Numbered from the stretch's first letter, positions 46,091 through 53,368 are shown. The stretch is 64,000 bases of DNA from Natronorubrum aibiense (GCF_009392895.1 NZ_CP045488.1:620001-684000); one strand, 5' to 3'. The notes: generated from the letters alone by a model not told the origin. Program-made: numbers and translations.

Positions 46091-46253
46091 TGAGGGCTCT
46101 GATTCAAATCCAGATGCTGCAGTCGATGCTCACGGTCGTTCGAGTTGGTAGGCGAGGGCTGGGATTTGAACTACGCGAAGACGATCACCTCGCTTCGCTC
46201 GGTGCTTCGACTTCTCTACTTCAAATCCAGATACCGCAGTCGACGCTCACGGT
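46091..46253. repeat. Accreted tRNA-end remnants left of the element
   Basis: Two related blocks. A 34-bp sequence starting ttcaaatccagat occurs at 46103-46136 and 46220-46253 (31 of 34 identical). The tRNA-Leu 3' end gcgagggctgggatttgaac occurs at 46152-46171 and again, inside the 55-bp copy, at 46270-46289. The spacing is 117-118 bp in both cases, so a unit ending in the tRNA tail was duplicated. A weaker tRNA-tail-like match occurs at 46090-46111. This looks like scars of earlier integrations at the same tRNA. Confidence 0.7.
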
Positions 46254-46267
46254 GTGTTCGCGTCAAC

Positions 46268-46322
46268 ATGCGAGGGCTGGGATTTGAACCCAGGGACCCC
46301 TACGGGAGCGGGTCTTAAGCCC
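46268..46322 (-). other. Left attachment site: displaced 3' part of tRNA-Leu
   Basis: 55 bp identical to 53189-53243, which is the 3' portion of the intact tRNA-Leu gene from the discriminator to past the anticodon. To the right of 46322 the sequences diverge completely. It is the expected product of site-specific integration into a tRNA 3' half. Confidence 0.9.
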
Positions 46323-46580
46323 TGGCACCGCTTCGTTACCGAAATTCAGACATTCCGGCAAAGCGTGCCTCGTTTTGGGTCCTCGCAGCGATTTCGGGCG
46401 TCCTTGGTAGTTAGAATGTACTAAATCTATATAAATCCCAACGAGGGTGGTCATAGCCCAAATGCCGTTCAATGTATTCTGCAGTGCCTCTGTGACACTG
46501 ATAGGGAAAAGAGACAGATGAACAAACGGAACTAACCAGTGACACAGTGCACTGATACTCGGTGTTCTACAGGCTATCGA

Positions 46581-46705
46581 TCGAGAAGGCTGCCAACTCT
46601 TACTACCACCACAAACAGTACTCAATAAGTGATCGGTGACTATATCCAGAGAGTGACTGGCGGTGCTGGGAACGGTTGCTGTATGTGGTCTGCCGCCTTC
46701 TCGAA
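46581..46705. repeat. Imperfect palindromic module 1
   Basis: Left arm tcgagaaggctgcca (46581-46595) and right arm ggtctgccgccttctcgaa (46687-46705) enclose about 90 bp. The right arm is the exact reverse complement of the left arm of module 3 (49574-49592, 19 of 19). It lies 3' of the small membrane gene at 46789 (minus strand). No coding frame is conserved among the three modules. Confidence 0.7.
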
Positions 46706-46788
46706 ACAGAAAGTGTAGTCACTATTCACTACCACTTCCAGATCACTACTTACTGGGAAAAGAGAGACAGTTGTTGGTGGTCACTCAT

Positions 46789-47022
46789 TCATGCCGCGTC
46801 AAGCAGTGCAACGAACGATCCACCGAATACCAGGGTTAAGAGTACGATCAGTACGGCGAAGACTGTTGGATACGCTACAGCGAAGTCGATCCAGCCAGGC
46901 TTCAGTGCCATCATGTCTCCATTGAGTAGGTCCCTTGCAGTCGAAAGAGAAAGCAGTCCAGCGACAACTACCATTGCTCCACCAACTACAGCAATGACTG
47001 CTCCACGGTCTGTTCCACTCAT
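46789..47022 (-). CDS. Small two-helix membrane protein
   Basis: 77 residues from ATG 47020-47022 (MSGTDRGAVIAVVGGAMVVV). Two hydrophobic helices (AVIAVVGGAMVVVAGLLSLS and PTVFAVLIVLLTLVFGGSFV) flank a short loop with DMMALKPGWIDFAVAYP. No family is recognised. Codon use is more AT-rich than in the flanking chromosome, as in the rest of the element. It is divergent from the lipoprotein gene. Confidence 0.6.
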   Translation of the reverse strand: MSGTDRGAVIAVVGGAMVVVAGLLSLSTARDLLNGDMMALKPGWIDFAVAYPTVFAVLIVLLTLVFGGSFVALLDAA

Positions 47023-47149
47023 TACGGTTGAAAATACGACAGACTTTTATAAAATATTTTTGACGAGCTATCCACCTCCGTATAGATCAATGTACTTGTC
47101 ATTCCGTATTACCAAAAGTTCTATTTCATCTTCATGTGTTACCTGAATC

Positions 47150-47572
47150 ATGAAACGCCGATCGGTGATTACGGGGGTTGCTGCCGCAAGTCTCAGCTCA
47201 GTTGCGGGCTGTTCGGCAGTTGAAACGGCTATGGGGAACCAGTATATTGACGAGCATCGTTGGAACGAGGACGATGAACTGGTAATCGTATTCCAAGAGG
47301 ATCATGATACTGACGGCTGGGCAATTCTACATGAGCATCACAGCTCTATTGATGACGCCATTATGAGCGGCGAATCGCCTGATTTCACCGGGCCACTGAC
47401 GTTAGATCTTATACGAGAAATCGGGGACGATGACTACCCATCATATAACTTCGATCTGAAATTGTACGAGGGTTGGTTTGGTCCGATGATGAGAACCGCT
47501 GAAGAGGAACTGGGATCTTACAGCTTTGAGGTTCCAGAAGACAAGGTACCGGACACAGTTATTTCTGGATAA
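47150..47572 (+). CDS. Putative Tat-exported lipoprotein
   Basis: 140 residues. The N-terminus MKRRSVITGVAAASLSSVAG followed by CSAVE combines a twin-arginine-like start with a lipobox (VAGC), the usual way haloarchaea anchor secreted proteins. The mature part is acidic with blocks DELVIVFQEDHDTDGWAILH and DYPSYNFDLKLYEGWFGPMM. No family is recognised. Exported cargo of unknown role in the element. Confidence 0.7.
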   Translation: MKRRSVITGVAAASLSSVAGCSAVETAMGNQYIDEHRWNEDDELVIVFQEDHDTDGWAILHEHHSSIDDAIMSGESPDFTGPLTLDLIREIGDDDYPSYNFDLKLYEGWFGPMMRTAEEELGSYSFEVPEDKVPDTVISG

Positions 47573-47582
47573 TTCTCGTCAC

Positions 47583-47699
47583 CTATCTCTTCTGTTCGAG
47601 AAGGTCGGCACACTCTTCGTTAAGTCGCGCAGCGGTCTGACGCTCGCTGTGGTGGGCTTCTTCGTCCTCCATGATGTCGCGACTGGCTTCGTATATCAT
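47583..47699 (-). pseudogene. Small gene fragment
   Basis: 38 codons from ATG 47697-47699: MIYEASRDIMEDEEAHHSER and then QTAARLNEECADLLEQKR, helical and acidic. An in-frame stop lies shortly upstream (GTG at 47712-47714 is another start). Its GC content is higher than that of the surrounding element. It reads like the C-terminal end of a longer haloarchaeal protein, but could be an intact tiny gene. Confidence 0.35.
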
Positions 47700-47714
47700 G
47701 GCCAGCTGGCGCAC

Positions 47715-47880
47715 GTCGACTTATGCTATATTAACGCAGACTGTAGATATAGGTATATTTATACAAAATATTTAATATGTTGTACAGCGAAGCTGTAGTG
47801 GGAAGAAGGAACAGTACGAGCAACTGTCCCTGTCTAAACTAATTAGTGTAAGGTGGTGGGAAGTGTCCCATAGACTGGTT
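47715..47880. other. AT-rich noncoding stretch
   Basis: Very AT-rich (for example gtagatataggtatatttat near 47742), with no coding frame. It could hold a promoter for leftward transcription of the fragment at 47583 or be a junction between acquired pieces. Confidence 0.4.
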
Positions 47881-47970
47881 CGAGAACGGGGTCACCAAGT
47901 ACAACCAATAAGCTTCTCAGTTACTGTAACAAGTTACTGGTACTGTTGTAGTAGTGTGGTGCCGTTCTTG
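47881..47970. repeat. Imperfect palindromic module 2
   Basis: Left arm cgagaacggggtcacca (47881-47897), right arm tggtgccgttcttg (47957-47970). The segment ccaagtacaaccaataagct (47895 on) matches module 3 at 49591 in 19 of 22 positions. It contains an inner complementary pair (ccaataa / gttactgg-like). It stands alone in a long noncoding region. Confidence 0.65.
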
Positions 47971-48174
47971 TAACAAGTAGTGTAGAACCACTCCCAGATA
48001 CACTTCTTATCACTGAATCGGGCCACGCAGTAGTGCACCAGTTAGTGCCAGGTCACTCATTACTGAACCCCCTATATCCCCCTTTGACGATCCGTCAGGC
48101 AGGTTCGAGGATGTAGGTAGGAGATACACCGGATCATACCCGCTACCAGCCAATCTGACGCGTCTATCGCCCTC
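47971..48174. other. Noncoding stretch with short tagtg-type repeats
   Basis: Contains many short agtg/cact words (for example aagtagtgtag, gcagtagtgcaccagttagtg) and the run gaaccccctatatccccc near 48065. No coding frame. Downstream flank similar in wording to the flank of module 1 (46711-46760), so the repeat family may extend into it. Confidence 0.35.
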
Positions 48175-48312
48175 GTGGTCGAGTTTTCCATCTATCTGAA
48201 TTCATTCATCGCAGAACATCAAAAGTCGCTCCTGGGCGAATCTGGGGCCGATGGCAGGGTCCACCAGGAGCAGATTGCAGAAGTTGCTCAGACCGCCAAT
48301 TTCTGCACTTAA
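48175..48312 (+). pseudogene. Possible decayed coding fragment
   Basis: Open from GTG 48175: VVEFSIYLNSFIAEHQKSLL, GESGADGRVHQEQIAEVAQT, ANFCT, then TAA. An in-frame stop lies about 75 bp upstream, and no ATG is available. The amino-acid composition looks protein-like, but no family is recognised; it may be the 3' remnant of a lost gene. Confidence 0.3.
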
Positions 48313-48807
48313 GCGATCTCGAGGACCAACAGCCTTGAGGGATTACTACCAGTTATTGAACTCCACTTTTTTAGTTCATTGTAGTTGGTGTGCACTATAT
48401 AATCGCTAACTCAAGCGATAAGGATGCGATGCATGCTGGCGTGCGAGAACGAGCACAACCCACCGATCTCGGGCGGCCTTCTTGTATTAGCGAGTGTGCA
48501 ACGTATTGTGGGCAATGGGTCGGTTGCGACACCATCAGGGGAGGGGTGGGGCCTCTACAGAGAGGTGACTGTCTCAGAATTTTTTAAAATTTAACCTATT
48601 ATAAGGCCGTGGTATAAACTTGAATTACAGACAGACTCGCGAAAATGTGCCACCCCAATATTTCTGGATAGTATTACTGAGTATAGTGGAAGCGACAAGG
48701 TTAATACCACTGGTTGAGACGCTAAAGGGGAAAGTCGACTTAGCGGGCTTCAAATCCGAGTTTTTGGACGTCTGAGCTAATGCATAACCCCGGCCGGTGA
48801 AATATTC
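48313..48807. other. 495-bp noncoding region before the epsilon-like gene
   Basis: AT-rich, no supported frame. It contains a small inverted repeat CGCTAA...TTAGCG near 48720-48745 and, just before the next gene, ccggccggtga, which could act as a ribosome-binding site for ATG 48808. Confidence 0.4.
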
Positions 48808-49443
48808 ATGTCAACTACTACCGAAATTGAAAACAGTAGAGTATCGATCGAGCAATCAGAGAGCGAAGATCCAATTAGTTGTTCAACGACAGAGAATGCG
48901 ACGGTATTCCGTTCGTGGGAATGCGCACAGGGTTACCGTCTCGGTGGGAGAAAAGATAGTTACCACGCTCACTATCGGCGTCTTTGGAAGCAGCATCTCG
49001 GCCTCTATAACGGAATGTGGCGAGATGAAAAGAAAATGAACAGACTCGATACGTTGTATCTATTCGACGCGATCTCTGGGTTCCTCGAACTGACTGCACT
49101 TCAAAAAGAGGAAGCAAGACGTCACGTTGAAAAGCAAGACTTCCGCCGGTTCAACCGCCCTAACTCGGGTATGTTGCCAACACTGACGGGAATTATCGCT
49201 ATCTGCGCGTATTACTGCCATGAGGATGGTCGACGTTGCCACCCGAATCATAAAGACAAAGACGAGCTGTTTGAGCAACTGTTTGCAGACTTTGAGATAC
49301 CGATGAACTACTTCGGGAAAGTCTATGGGCGGTTTGAACAGGATCTGCGGAAACCCCTTCCTGCTCCTGATCTTGATGAAGCAGTAGTCGTCCCGCAGGG
49401 TGGAGAATGGTGGCCTTATGGACAGGTCTGCTCACCGGCTTGA
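48808..49443 (+). CDS. RNA polymerase epsilon-subunit-like / cyclin-like protein
   Basis: 211 residues. After a Ser/Glu-rich N-terminus, the core reads WECAQGYRLGGRKDSYHAHY, RRLWKQHLGLYNGMWRDEKK, then RLDTLYLFDAISGFLELTAL and a predicted helical bundle to residue 185. This pattern resembles haloarchaeal proteins annotated as RNA polymerase subunit epsilon and the cyclin-like repeats of TFB. As cargo of a mobile element it might redirect transcription. The family assignment is from memory of conserved wording, so moderate only. Confidence 0.55.
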   Translation: MSTTTEIENSRVSIEQSESEDPISCSTTENATVFRSWECAQGYRLGGRKDSYHAHYRRLWKQHLGLYNGMWRDEKKMNRLDTLYLFDAISGFLELTALQKEEARRHVEKQDFRRFNRPNSGMLPTLTGIIAICAYYCHEDGRRCHPNHKDKDELFEQLFADFEIPMNYFGKVYGRFEQDLRKPLPAPDLDEAVVVPQGGEWWPYGQVCSPA

Positions 49444-49573
49444 ACATATCATTATCTCCCAAAACTCGACAGATCGAATAGGGGGTTATAAAGAATTTTG
49501 TATTAATAGGGGTAGAGAAGCGGCGAACGGCGGTAGTGACACTACTTAGTGGGTTGTCGGTGTCGAAGATTAG

Positions 49574-49680
49574 TTCGAGAAGGCGGCAGACCAAGTGTAA
49601 CCAGTAAGCTTCCCGGTGAGATACACACTGAGCTACTCGGCGTTACTGGGAATGGCTATAGTAGTCTGGCGCCCTTCTCG
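49574..49680. repeat. Imperfect palindromic module 3
   Basis: Left arm ttcgagaaggcggcagacc (49574-49592), right arm gtctggcgcccttctcg (49664-49680), which pair over 16 positions with one bulge. An inner pair ccagtaa (49601) / gttactgg (49642) extends the fold. It shares 19 bp exactly (reverse complement) with module 1 and a 22-bp segment with module 2. It lies 130 bp 3' of the epsilon-like gene. Confidence 0.7.
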
Positions 49681-50019
49681 CAAGAAGAAGCTTTTCTCCC
49701 GATCCTGCCGGACACCGATCGGGCACGAAGGGGTGTTCACCACTACGTGTCACTTCTAACAGTACGGTAGGGTATCAAATTCTTTCTACACGCTAACAAT
49801 TTTCGCACATCTACCAACGAACAGCTAAAAACGGGAATCTTCGAAGCCTGTGAAAGCGTCTCTCGGTTCGCGATCGACGGAGTTCTTATTTACCAGGATT
49901 TGTTGAAATCCTCAGAATCTGTTAGAAAGAGAGTGCTGAATACAGAGAATGAATGTATCGGGCTTGTAAAAATTGTAGCCCTTTCACGCATCGGTCGTTG
50001 GAATACAATATCTCAGTAA
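49681..50019. other. 339-bp region without a called gene
   Basis: A plus-strand frame is open from about 49771 to a TAA at 50017-50019 (contains EQLKTGIFEACESVSRFAID) but lacks a start codon before an internal TTG. It is AT-rich; at this composition such a frame can arise by chance. It may instead be the end of a broken gene. Confidence 0.35.
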
Positions 50020-50262
50020 CTAATTTGAGTGGCCGGGCGGATTAACGCCGTTACAAAGCTTAGGAACATTTTCACCCGGTGGACCTACGTTTTTTGCATA
50101 GTTGGATGCAGCTTCTCCTTGCTCTCCTGGGTCACGGTCTGTAAGACTTGGTATTCCTTTGTTTTCACCGCAGTTGTTCGCGTCTGCTGATACCACGCCA
50201 GCGGTACCGCCCGTAAGCGCAACGAGTACTACGAGCGCGATGAGTATTTTAGTGGTTCTCAT
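50020..50262 (-). CDS. Small secreted protein
   Basis: 80 residues from ATG 50260-50262. A clear Sec signal MRTTKILIALVVLVALTGGT is followed by AGVVSADA (cleavage likely after SADA). The mature part of about 52 residues is Gly/Pro/Asn-rich with two cysteines (NNCGENKG and PKLCNGVNPPG) that could form a disulfide. No family is recognised. Size and cysteines resemble secreted peptides such as halocins, but that is speculation. Confidence 0.6.
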   Translation of the reverse strand: MRTTKILIALVVLVALTGGTAGVVSADANNCGENKGIPSLTDRDPGEQGEAASNYAKNVGPPGENVPKLCNGVNPPGHSN

Positions 50263-50465
50263 GTCTTTTCACTGGATAGGTGGTTTCCCTTATCCAGGTG
50301 AGGGTGCCACGGACGTCTATATAACCAATGACGACTGTTTCTCACGAGGAACTGATAGTTACTACGAGAAAATCATTGAATTATAGAATTATTGAGATGG
50401 TTCCAACAGTACGTCCGTCTTATGCTGTTGGTGAACGGAGGCCTGTGCTTGTCCTCTCCTGAATA
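50263..50465. other. Promoter region of the secreted peptide and pre-IS flank
   Basis: Contains tctatataacc near 50319-50329 (TATA-like on the minus strand would be about 60 bp before the ATG) and an inverted repeat CCAACAG...CTGTTGG at 50403-50431. No gene is supported. Confidence 0.35.
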
Positions 50466-50474
50466 GATACTCTG

Positions 50475-51453
50475 GGCCTTGTTTGAACGCGTGATTTCAC
50501 GGGTGTAAGTCCTCTATTGCGCGTTCGATGTTGCGGACGGCGGATTTCATGACAAGTTCACGGAATTGACCGAACCAGGTTCTCGACCAGAGCGTATCGC
50601 CGTATCTGCGCCGGAGACCGAAAAACACCGATTCAGCGTTCGACCGCTGGTGATACGCCCGATCCTTGATGAGCAAATTTCTCGCCCACCCCCGCATTCC
50701 AGGATCTCGCTGCGGAATCAGCGGCGTGATACTTTCCGCACGCAACCTCGTACGAATCTCCTCCCAGTCGTAGCCCTTATCGGCAGCGACAGTCGTCAAA
50801 TCGTCGAGATTCCGCACTAACACCTGCCAGCCGACCTGTGTATCGTGCGGTTGTTTCATCGAGCAGTGTATATCGAGAATCGCACTGGTTTCACAATCGA
50901 TAAGCAGCGTCGTCTTCACCGCCTCAAACGTATAGTCCGTCCGTTTTGCGTAGTGCTGGCTGGCCTGGACGCGATCGACACCGGTTGCGTCGATCGCCTG
51001 CACATCACCGAGATCATACAGCTCGACGGACTGATCAAGGATCGCTCGCCACCGCTTCATCGGAATTGCCTGCTTTCGCGTACACACCGTCGAGAAGTGT
51101 GGAACCGTTTCAGGCCTCAATCCGAGTGATTTTGTCACTCTCGGCATCTCGCGGAGGACGTCCATCAGCTTCCGGTACGGATGGCCGAGATACTCTTTCA
51201 ATCCCTGAACGGCGAGAATCACCCAGTCAGCGTAGCCTTCTTCTCCCGGACGGTAGGCCGGTGCTGGCGTTCCAACGACGGCTTTTTGAGCGAGCGATAC
51301 AACCTTCTCTGTGAAGCGGGAGGTCTTCGTGTGCACAACGAACCCGTCCCGCTTCACTTCCTAGTAGATTTGGTATTTTCCCCGAGCTACTAACACGACG
51401 ATACGAGTTCGATCGACTCTACACTGCTAATGTTTGAGCGTCTAAACAAGGCC
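50475..51453 (-). mobile_element. IS5-family insertion sequence, 979 bp
   Basis: Terminal inverted repeats of 16 bp: ggccttgtttgaacgc (50475-50490) and gcgtctaaacaaggcc (51438-51453), 14 of 16 pairing. The 9-bp flanks gatactctg are identical at 50466-50474 and 51454-51462, a target-site duplication. One transposase gene fills the element. The perfect duplication indicates a fairly recent insertion into the integrated element. Confidence 0.93.
50497..51357 (-). CDS. IS5-family transposase
   Basis: 286 residues. The start is GTG at 51355-51357 (VKRDGFVVHTKTSRFTEKVV), because an in-frame stop lies two codons upstream. DDE-type catalytic region: IDATGVDRVQASQHYAKRTD (first Asp), TTVAADKGYDWEEIR (second Asp) and HQRSNAESVFFGLRRRYGD (Glu). 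The intact frame and intact ends suggest it is active. Confidence 0.92.
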   Translation of the reverse strand: MKRDGFVVHTKTSRFTEKVVSLAQKAVVGTPAPAYRPGEEGYADWVILAVQGLKEYLGHPYRKLMDVLREMPRVTKSLGLRPETVPHFSTVCTRKQAIPMKRWRAILDQSVELYDLGDVQAIDATGVDRVQASQHYAKRTDYTFEAVKTTLLIDCETSAILDIHCSMKQPHDTQVGWQVLVRNLDDLTTVAADKGYDWEEIRTRLRAESITPLIPQRDPGMRGWARNLLIKDRAYHQRSNAESVFFGLRRRYGDTLWSRTWFGQFRELVMKSAVRNIERAIEDLHP

Positions 51454-51616
51454 GATACTCTGTATTACACATGGTTACTAAGGGGTTACCTCGTCTCTAA
51501 AAAAACTCCGTGGTACATTCGCGCTGTGTATCTTGCACGACTCCTGAAACTTATCGCCGATTAAGATTTTCAACAGAACCATTCATCCTATTATGTACGA
51601 TTGCAACCACACATCA

Positions 51617-51661
51617 CACAGCAGTCGTTCGATGCGGTGTGCAGTGACGGTCAGTGGCTAC
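51617..51661. repeat. Dispersed ~45-bp repeat, copy 2 (3' of the integrase-linked gene)
   Basis: Core 51630-51649 identical over 20 bp to 36298-36317, with similar flanks (cacagcagtcgttcg before, gtcagtggctac after). It ends 4 bp before the stop codon of the 86-residue gene, just as copy 1 touches the dps stop, and in the same orientation relative to the gene. Confidence 0.75.
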
Positions 51662-51665
51662 TATA

Positions 51666-51926
51666 TTAGAACAGATTCAGGTATGGCCGTCTCAGTAGCC
51701 TCTTGACGTCTTTGTTCTCGTCAGGAACACAGCCGTAGATCCGACGAAGTTCATCTTCACTGAAGGCCGCGAAGCCACACTCTTGATCTTCGAGTTCATC
51801 GAGCTGCCAGACGGTTGCTTCGAGGATCGCGGTCTCGAGCTGGCGGCGTTCTCGCTGCGTTCGGGCCTCCGGGTAGGCGTCGATGAGTTCCTGCACTTCT
51901 GCTGTGTTGTACGTCGTCATGGTCAT
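51666..51926 (-). CDS. Small acidic protein translationally coupled to the integrase
   Basis: 86 residues from ATG 51924-51926, which overlaps the integrase stop by 4 bp (ATGA); a second ATG lies two codons in. Helical and acidic: TAEVQELIDAYPEARTQRER, LETAILEATVWQLDELEDQE, ending RRPYLNLF. No family is recognised. The coupling to the recombinase suggests an excision or regulatory partner, but no DNA-binding motif is evident. Confidence 0.6.
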   Translation of the reverse strand: MTMTTYNTAEVQELIDAYPEARTQRERRQLETAILEATVWQLDELEDQECGFAAFSEDELRRIYGCVPDENKDVKRLLRRPYLNLF

Positions 51927-53023
51927 CCCATTCTGTCGAGTGCGTCCTGGCGATCTTCGACCGGGGCAGCGTCGTACTTCATCGTCGTCTGTACGCTCCT
52001 GTGACGCAATTGCGCCTGCGCAGCGGCCAGATCCTCTTCTCGAGTCATGTACGTCCCGACCGAGTATCGGATCGAGTACCAGCTCATCTTCCGGTTTTCC
52101 GTGTCGATCCCTGCTTCCTCGCACAGATTGTGGAGTAGTCGTTTGAGCGACTGCGAATCGTACGGGTTTCCGAAGCGGGTGAGCCACAGTGCGTCCGTAT
52201 CGTCGTAGAGTTCCCGTTGATCGCGTTCTTCGATCCACCGCTCGAGTGCTTCTGCGGTCTGCGAGGAGATGCTTACGAGCCAATTATCGCGGTTCTTGGT
52301 GGACTCCTCAACGGGAATGCGGAGCACTTCGTTTTCCGTGTCCACCCACGAGACTTTCGCGCGGCCGACTTCCGCTGGCCGAAGGCCCGCGTCCAAGCTC
52401 GTCCACACGATCGACGTCAGCTTCCATCCGTTGACTCGCTCCCAATCATCGGGAGATACCTCCTCGAGCGGCTTCCGCAACCGTTGTGAGACGTACTTCT
52501 TCCACTCTGCACGCTCTTCCGGTGAGAGCGAGCGGTAACTCGGGATCGAGCCGTAATCAAGTGCGGCTTCCCGAACCTTTCTGCGCTCCTGTACGGTCAG
52601 GAAGTCACGCGGCTGCGTGTTCTGATCCTTCGAGAAGGAGATCTTCGGCTCCCACTTCTCCTCGCCATGCTGGTGGTGTCGCCACTTGAAGTAGCGAACC
52701 AGCGCGTCTCGAGTGTTACACCTGTGCGAGCCACTGTAGTCCTCCTTCGCCAGATGCATCACGTAATCGTCGGCGTGGTCTCGAGTCAGCACTGGGACGT
52801 ACTCCTCTTCTTTCTCCCACACGTAGCGTTCGAAAACGCCGATGCGGTACGTCGTGGCGCGCGCGGTGTACTCGGAGTAGCCCTCGACCTTCTCGGGCTT
52901 TTTACCGAACACAAGGAGCCACTCGACGAACTCGCGCCGCTTGTTCTCGTAATCGACGAGCTGTTTGCTGTTCAGATACGTTTCGGCCTTCCGTGGGACG
53001 ATTTCGAAGTTGATTTCGACCAT
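51923..53023 (-). CDS. Tyrosine recombinase / phage-type integrase
   Basis: 366 residues. The N-terminal core-binding region (residues 10-125) is helical, and the catalytic domain covers residues 140-355. Catalytic residues visible: Arg215 in LDAGLRPAEVG, Arg319 in SWYSIRYSVGTYM (the usual preceding His is Tyr316), His341 in AQLRHRSVQTTMKYD and nucleophile Tyr350. It lies 166 bp from the tRNA-Leu gene, typical for elements using that tRNA as attachment site. The gene is not split by integration, unlike SSV-type integrases. Confidence 0.92.
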   Translation of the reverse strand: MVEINFEIVPRKAETYLNSKQLVDYENKRREFVEWLLVFGKKPEKVEGYSEYTARATTYRIGVFERYVWEKEEEYVPVLTRDHADDYVMHLAKEDYSGSHRCNTRDALVRYFKWRHHQHGEEKWEPKISFSKDQNTQPRDFLTVQERRKVREAALDYGSIPSYRSLSPEERAEWKKYVSQRLRKPLEEVSPDDWERVNGWKLTSIVWTSLDAGLRPAEVGRAKVSWVDTENEVLRIPVEESTKNRDNWLVSISSQTAEALERWIEERDQRELYDDTDALWLTRFGNPYDSQSLKRLLHNLCEEAGIDTENRKMSWYSIRYSVGTYMTREEDLAAAQAQLRHRSVQTTMKYDAAPVEDRQDALDRMG

Positions 53024-53188
53024 GTTGCGTCCGAACCCATTTCATCGAACGGGAACGGGTGTAGCCCAATCGTCAAAGTCGCCGCTGTCTTGCGATTTTG
53101 GCAGTCACATCGAACGATGTTGGGCGATAGTTGGTTAACGTACACGTTGCTCGGACGCGTGAAAACCGCAAGAGGGCAAAGCCCTGGA

Positions 53189-53243
53189 ATGCGAGGGCTG
53201 GGATTTGAACCCAGGGACCCCTACGGGAGCGGGTCTTAAGCCC
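53189..53243 (-). other. Right attachment site (3' part of intact tRNA-Leu)
   Basis: Identical to 46268-46322 over 55 bp. The element supplies this part and so restores the tRNA gene after integration. Confidence 0.9.
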
Positions 53244-53273
53244 ACCGCCGTTGGCCTGCTTGGCTACCCTCGC
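53190..53273 (-). tRNA. tRNA-Leu, anticodon UAA
   Basis: On the minus strand the gene begins GCGAGGGTAGCCAAGCAGGC and ends CCCAGCCCTCGC plus discriminator A. The acceptor stem pairs over 7 bp (GCGAGGG/CCCTCGC). The anticodon stem GTGGG/CCCGC encloses loop CTTAAGA, giving anticodon TAA. A long variable arm (class II) is present, and the T-arm carries GGTTCAAATCC. 84 nt including the discriminator; CCA is not encoded. It is the attachment site of the integrated element. Confidence 0.96.
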
Positions 53274-53368
53274 ACAGAAGTGCACTCGAGGATAGTACCC
53301 CACCCGGAATGTGCGTTTCGATGTCGATCCCGGTCAGCCGGCACGCGTCGGTGTGTTCGTGGTGCCCG

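Follow-up and report, generated by a model that had tools for sequence, protein, structure and literature searches.

The three imperfect palindromic modules described here, m1, m2 and m3, are, as judged by sequence homology, copies of two recurrent non-coding control regions (A and B) of a tailed halovirus lineage. All three lie inside a compact integrated element of the window, the whole 64,000-nucleotide stretch of Natronorubrum aibiense DNA that was analysed, and this element is most likely a satellite-like parasite of tailed haloviruses or a derivative of one. On the best reading, to which we assign a probability of about 0.6, the modules serve satellite-like elements of haloarchaeal tailed viruses as control regions. 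Bacterial examples of tailed-virus satellites are well established, and the papers searched returned none from haloarchaea. If confirmed, this reading would extend tailed-virus satellite parasitism and its link with defence cargo to archaea, would suggest that a viral TFIIB-like factor serves as the handle, and would make the role of the repeat-rich leaders at halovirus early promoters, an old open point, testable.

The element comprises 6,976 bp (46268-53243) and is bounded by identical 55-bp direct repeats, att copy 1 at 46268..46322 (no strand assigned) and att copy 2 at 53189-53243, the latter being the 3' part of a tRNA-Leu(TAA) gene (53189..53274, minus strand). A tyrosine integrase gene (51923..53023, minus strand) adjoins one element end; it is full length and has no close relation to the integrase of the provirus in genome G006 with which the element is compared below. 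The remaining genes include a phrog_12649-family gene of 211 aa between m2 and m3 (48808..49443, plus strand), a cargo gene for a lipoprotein-like protein of 140 aa with a relative in G025 at 81% amino acid identity (47150..47572, plus strand), a cargo gene for a secreted small protein of 80 aa (50020..50262, minus strand), and the remnant of a 59-aa ORF (47583..47720, minus strand), an ORF that comes after module A in G006, G052 and G055. A putative small membrane-protein ORF of ~77 aa (46790..47023, minus strand) was identified by eye, contains one stop when its coordinates are translated, and falls within a block of 92% identity common to the window and G052. An IS5-type insertion sequence (50462..51466, minus strand; transposase 50497-51357) is a later insertion. 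The element lacks capsid, portal, TerL, polymerase and TerS genes as well as any replication gene of its own, and when the 62 proteins of the G006 provirus were compared with the whole window, the phrog_12649 homolog was the sole match.

The modules are all on the plus strand. m1, of A type, covers 46562..46820 and consists of a dyad (46581-46705) plus its right flank; m2, of B type, lies at 47881..47970 within a full homologous stretch of 47746-48014; m3, a B-type core, lies at 49574..49680. The initial annotation had drawn attention to a reverse-complement identity between the right arm of m1 (46686-46705) and the left arm of m3 (49574-49593), which proved to be exact over 20 nt and beyond chance, a search of the whole window giving 2 hits at 0 mismatches where 0.19 would be expected for up to 3 mismatches. 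Its source is the complementarity between the two arms of every module; the possibility that m1 is an inverted copy was rejected, as m1 has the same orientation as its homologs and is colinear with them. The inner segment reported as common to m2 and m3 is larger than first claimed (46 nt at 78% and 49 nt at 76%, in direct orientation), and the modules are indeed intergenic, none lying inside a credible gene. No Rfam family matched them at E-values up to 1.

Further copies, for which a genome search had been suggested, were found in G006, G052, G055 and G425. Among 149 related genomes, the m3 query matched G006 alone; the homolog (2798441-2798560) belongs to region B, which sits directly upstream of a phrog_12649-family gene and thus forms its leader, and m3 is 84-87% identical to 2798437-2798570. 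The m2 stretch aligns to 2798320-2798604 at 66-83% identity, and m1 to 2775808-2776075 at ~81% over most of its length. Region A of G006 (2775690-2776070) is 22 kb away from B, stands before a type IIG restriction gene, and lies 213 bp inside the provirus attachment site at tRNA-Trp (26-bp repeats at 2775402 and 2836789), as m1 lies 240 bp from att in the window. At the opposite end from A, the integrase-to-att distance is 166 bp in the window and 176 bp in G006. Module A had been considered host-borne, an idea dropped once the tRNA-Trp att repeats were found. As to the proposal that the modules are recombination sites, attachment involves separate tRNA-derived repeats 210-240 bp from the A-type module. 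Over window positions 46614-47067, m1 is 92% identical to the copy in G052, and it is 71-85% identical to those in G055 and G425, of which G425 has two. A-type regions accompanied by type IIG restriction genes also occur in G052 and G021, and the sequence flanking them shows homology to the tRNA-Trp locus of G006. In G007, one region of A type is found near tRNA-Thr and one of B type before a phrog_12649 gene; both G007 and G021 retain the module layout. A promoter block is common to A and B within G006 and within G007, with a weak third match in both genomes before the leftward replication operon. Two pattern searches were set aside: that for the inner segment in IMG/VR gave 1 true match and 14 judged to be chance on GC content and folding and because the adjacent gene was missing, and that for the arm in 391 genomes gave mostly chance hits, a control pattern also hitting widely.

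When the window element is laid on the G006 provirus, convincing nucleotide matches are confined to non-coding control regions plus one gene. The matched pieces are A, the 59-aa ORF, the shared promoter, B, stretches that precede TerS, phrog_12649, and the B core again, with several viral segments rearranged relative to the provirus. The non-coding matches to the virus or its relatives are mostly at 80-92% identity, typically 80-87% with 92% reached against G052 and a low of 66% in parts of m2, whereas the window phrog_12649 protein is only 32% identical to its G006 homolog. Three of the non-coding stretches, all on the plus strand, are connected with the terminase locus: 48011..48272 is 70% identical to a sequence upstream of TerS in G055 (L155 3344-3078), 48289..48357 is 83% identical to G006 2807972-2808040, ~1.1 kb upstream of TerS, and 49664..49767 is 82% identical to G006 2808957-2809061, which lies close upstream of the gene for the terminase small subunit, the match ending ~50 bp before TerS. 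Window positions 49668-49803 also align to the TerS-proximal region of G055 at 69%.

The G055 relative is a 15-kb element at tRNA-Gly (G055:C41:185503-200602; L159, L155) that combines an A module, the 59-aa ORF stretch, a type IIG gene, two terminase-proximal stretches and TerS. Its TerS is 86% and its type IIG enzyme 57% identical to the G006 counterparts, and these two are the only ones of the 62 G006 provirus proteins with homologs in 60 kb of G055. Att-like tandem repeats of ~86 bp were also observed in this element. Compact elements were recovered more widely, as all 12 sampled genomes with element-type phrog_12649 homologs (L134-L145) contain elements of 3.0-14.1 kb, each of which has an integrase together with tRNA-derived repeats of 25-54 bp; no G006 capsid, terminase, polymerase or primase gene was present in 20 kb at any of them. 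Their GC content is 0.43-0.54, against 0.60-0.70 for the chromosomes. Several carry defence genes, and among the cargo are type II/IIG methylases, a SIR2 protein (PDC-S65), a kinase and ParB, besides weak HEPN matches.

The phrog_12649 family is represented in 53 tailed-halovirus records, and in those examined the gene order is homing endonuclease, intergenic region, phrog_12649 and ERCC4 nuclease. AlphaFold modelling of the family (mean pLDDT 78) gave one cyclin/TFIIB-core-like fold, and Foldseek matched it to the TFIIB core/cyclin fold with probability 1.0, E 0.17 and a TM of about 0.45. Such a fold would account for the weak matches of the family to ~300-residue proteins in many haloarchaeal genomes, which are presumably TFB. 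Upstream of m2, a promoter region (47705..47815, plus strand) comprises a TATA box and a GAA-loop hairpin, TACAGC-GAA-GCTGTA, and is recovered by covariance model R1 with E 3e-19. A second TATA box, TTATAAAG (49484..49491, plus strand), lies directly downstream of the phrog_12649-family gene with a predicted start at ~49511, and m3 stands behind it. A TATA box within 60 nt past the stop codon was found at 15 of 30 phrog_12649 loci vs 11 of 575 other long frames; virus-type loci do not have it, except possibly L009. The region downstream of phrog_12649 genes is weakly structured (z mostly +2.6 to -3.3), and in the other elements it gave no convincing match to the phage collection.

The pairing of arms within each module, as initially described, was borne out by RNA folding, moderately for m1 (z of -1.7) and m2 (-2.1) and clearly for m3 (-3.4). 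With longer flanks, z is about -0.9 for m1 and m2 of the window and -6 to -9 for the proviral homologs, and the B palindrome of G006 reaches -9.4. In a ranking of 200-nt windows by excess folding, the B leader came 1/598 in G006, the equivalent leader 1/448 in G007, and the G089 leader 1/178; eight other virus regions did not rank first. A strongly folded leader is found in some viruses only, and strong leader folding was looked for in the elements and did not prove general among them. The 6-bp hairpin just past the TATA box occurs in A, B and m2 with an invariant GAA loop; across 7 sequences all 42 cells are paired and 4 of the 6 pairs have changed on both sides, whereas slid controls are at most 55% paired. 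For the large dyads, compensatory change between the arms was found in part; with this and the further copies described above, the outcome that the initial annotation named as refuting it did not arise. With the small GAA hairpin excluded, all five both-changed pairs between m2 and G006 B are Watson-Crick (1.3 expected; p 0.004) and three of the five belong to the core stem. The comparison of B with A gave p 0.01 in one direction and 0.22 in the other, that of m3 with B gave p 0.03, and m1 showed no compensatory changes. These tests are supportive rather than proof, being pairwise, several in number, and based on a structure taken from one of the two sequences. Replacements by G-U vs A-C in the large dyads show no consistent strand bias and so favour neither an RNA-level nor a DNA-level role.

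In the proposed scheme, a compact integrative element would carry the A and B regions of a halovirus, joining tRNA attachment, an integrase, a TFIIB-like protein, the A/B modules and terminase-proximal sequence. At each module a promoter would fire into a hairpin-forming leader, and the virus-matching cis regions might let helper proteins drive transcription, replication or packaging of the element. We know of no defined packaging site of these tailed viruses. Features that might bear on packaging are TerS in G055 and the terminase-proximal sequence in the window. More broadly, and tentatively, at just under even odds, compact haloarchaeal tRNA-integrated elements with an integrase, a TFIIB-like protein, defence cargo and, in one case, a small terminase subunit may be widespread satellites of tailed viruses, with the hairpin modules as virus-matching control sites through which they respond to a helper.

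Several known systems resemble parts of this arrangement. In HF2, the corresponding intergenic region, its equivalence resting on matching coordinates and sequence of HF2-group loci, contains two promoters, one of them strong and the other bidirectional and set within 12-bp repeats, and their start sites were mapped by primer extension (PMC8707807). The class I intergenic repeats of HF2 share with the present regions a location upstream of a phrog_12649 homolog, short direct repeats in the leader, and a TATA promoter-bearing intergenic sequence that is repeated in the genome, as are A and B in G006 and G007; however, the two show no sequence similarity, and a long palindrome and GAA hairpin are not described for HF2 (PMC8707807). 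The G006 leader matched no phage records, including those of HF2 relatives, and the HF2 alpha, beta and gamma motifs were not found. Like PICI/SaPI, the window element and its 12 relatives are compact, with an integrase and att direct repeats and without capsid genes, the G055 relative has a small terminase subunit, and several relatives carry defence cargo; as in phage satellites generally, a full set of structural genes is lacking from both the G055 and the window element. Unlike PICI/SaPI, they have archaeal hosts, a TFIIB-like protein and no recognised replication gene, and their use of a helper is putative. Fusellovirus satellites (pSSVx, and a putative integrated satellite; PMC4158269) are also archaeal and proposed to be virus-dependent, but are relatives of spindle-shaped viruses with prim-pol replication proteins, whereas the window-type elements are relatives of tailed viruses. 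The Rep-Arvir hairpin origin of SNJ2 (PMC13107129) similarly places hairpin-forming non-coding DNA beside a gene of an integrating haloarchaeal element, but its hairpin is short and the neighbouring protein is a Rep rather than TFIIB-like. A Rep/HUH origin was rejected for the modules on account of the TFIIB-like adjacent protein, and GC skew showed no turning point of origin sign at A or B.

The main competing account of the element is that it is a decayed tailed provirus which has lost most of its genes, the modules being functionless leftovers. Such a relic is conceivable, for the window copy in particular, since the window element has neither TerS nor a replication gene of its own and the palindrome of m1 has been poorly kept; the modules of the window fold less well than their homologs, an IS insertion is present, and phrog_12649 is the only provirus protein left. 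The poor folding of m1 and its lack of compensatory change also count against the satellite reading, as do the restriction of the strongly folded leader to some viruses, the lack of a defined packaging site, the absence of convincing phage matches downstream of the phrog_12649 gene in other elements, and the rearrangement of several viral segments. Decay nonetheless appears unlikely, as the att repeats match exactly and the integrase is full length, the integrase and phrog_12649 gene are of other lineages than the G006 virus, the matching pieces are non-coding and derive from four distinct regions, 33 kb apart, m2 has compensatory changes, and 12 independent compact elements and one TerS-bearing element exist. 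The initial suggestion of non-autonomous, MITE-like mobile repeats is highly improbable. Three related palindromes within 3 kb might recall such repeats, but the copies occupy fixed places relative to att and the phrog_12649 gene in several genomes, no target-site duplication was noted, and blastn of the host genome found this single locus and no module copies elsewhere.

Two further alternatives concern mechanism only. The modules could be DNA sites, i.e. dyad-symmetric arrays of protein-binding repeats forming an operator or a replication origin, the hairpin potential then following from inverted sites; this is compatible with the satellite reading and is a serious contender, though somewhat short of an even chance. 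Direct repeats spaced by roughly 11-15 bp in several leaders, the 14-15 bp spacing of the 12-bp HF2 repeats (PMC8707807), a private motif in each virus that is common to at least two of its own regions, the absence of G-U vs A-C bias and the near-invariant core stem of A-type modules all agree with it. Against it stand the coordinated substitutions seen in m2/B as well as in the GAA hairpin, and the divergence of A and B of one genome in the two hairpin arms, which is unlike what sites for a single protein show. Alternatively, the modules might be structured regulatory RNA, as leaders or small RNAs, possibly pairing with viral primase mRNA. The right arm of m1/A (46687-46714) is identical at 27 of 28 nt to G006 2792440-2792467 (L004 4000-4027), which is viral primase coding sequence, so that the left arm is complementary to primase mRNA, but this match was seen only in the G006 lineage. 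The structured-RNA option of the initial annotation gains from the upstream TATA boxes, the hairpin that covaries at the predicted start site and the mapped HF2 promoters (PMC8707807), and loses from the lack of strand bias and the about equal folding of G006-type A and B on either strand; we regard it as possible, with the odds leaning against it.

A few additional observations were made on these loci. Strong TATATAAACC-type promoters right after the phrog_12649 stop codon were seen in L136-L145, L009, L029, L031, L032 and L034 and at window position 49484, with no clear gene in the next 250-300 nt. G334, G403 and G218 have in common a GGCCACC-CGAGCCGCAGGCGAGG-GGTGGCC-like motif downstream of phrog_12649, and in the proviruses of G089, G317, G290 and G256 the repeats of the phrog_12649 leader recur at least once elsewhere, with a virus-specific motif. 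Near-identical copies of the IS5-type sequence of the window (50462-51466) occur on haloarchaeal plasmids. Finally, window positions 46097-46322 contain degenerate tandem copies of the tRNA-Leu 3' end (46138-46171 and 46256-46289) and of a 40-bp flank (46097-46136 and 46214-46253), a pattern that suggests repeated integrations at the tRNA-Leu site.
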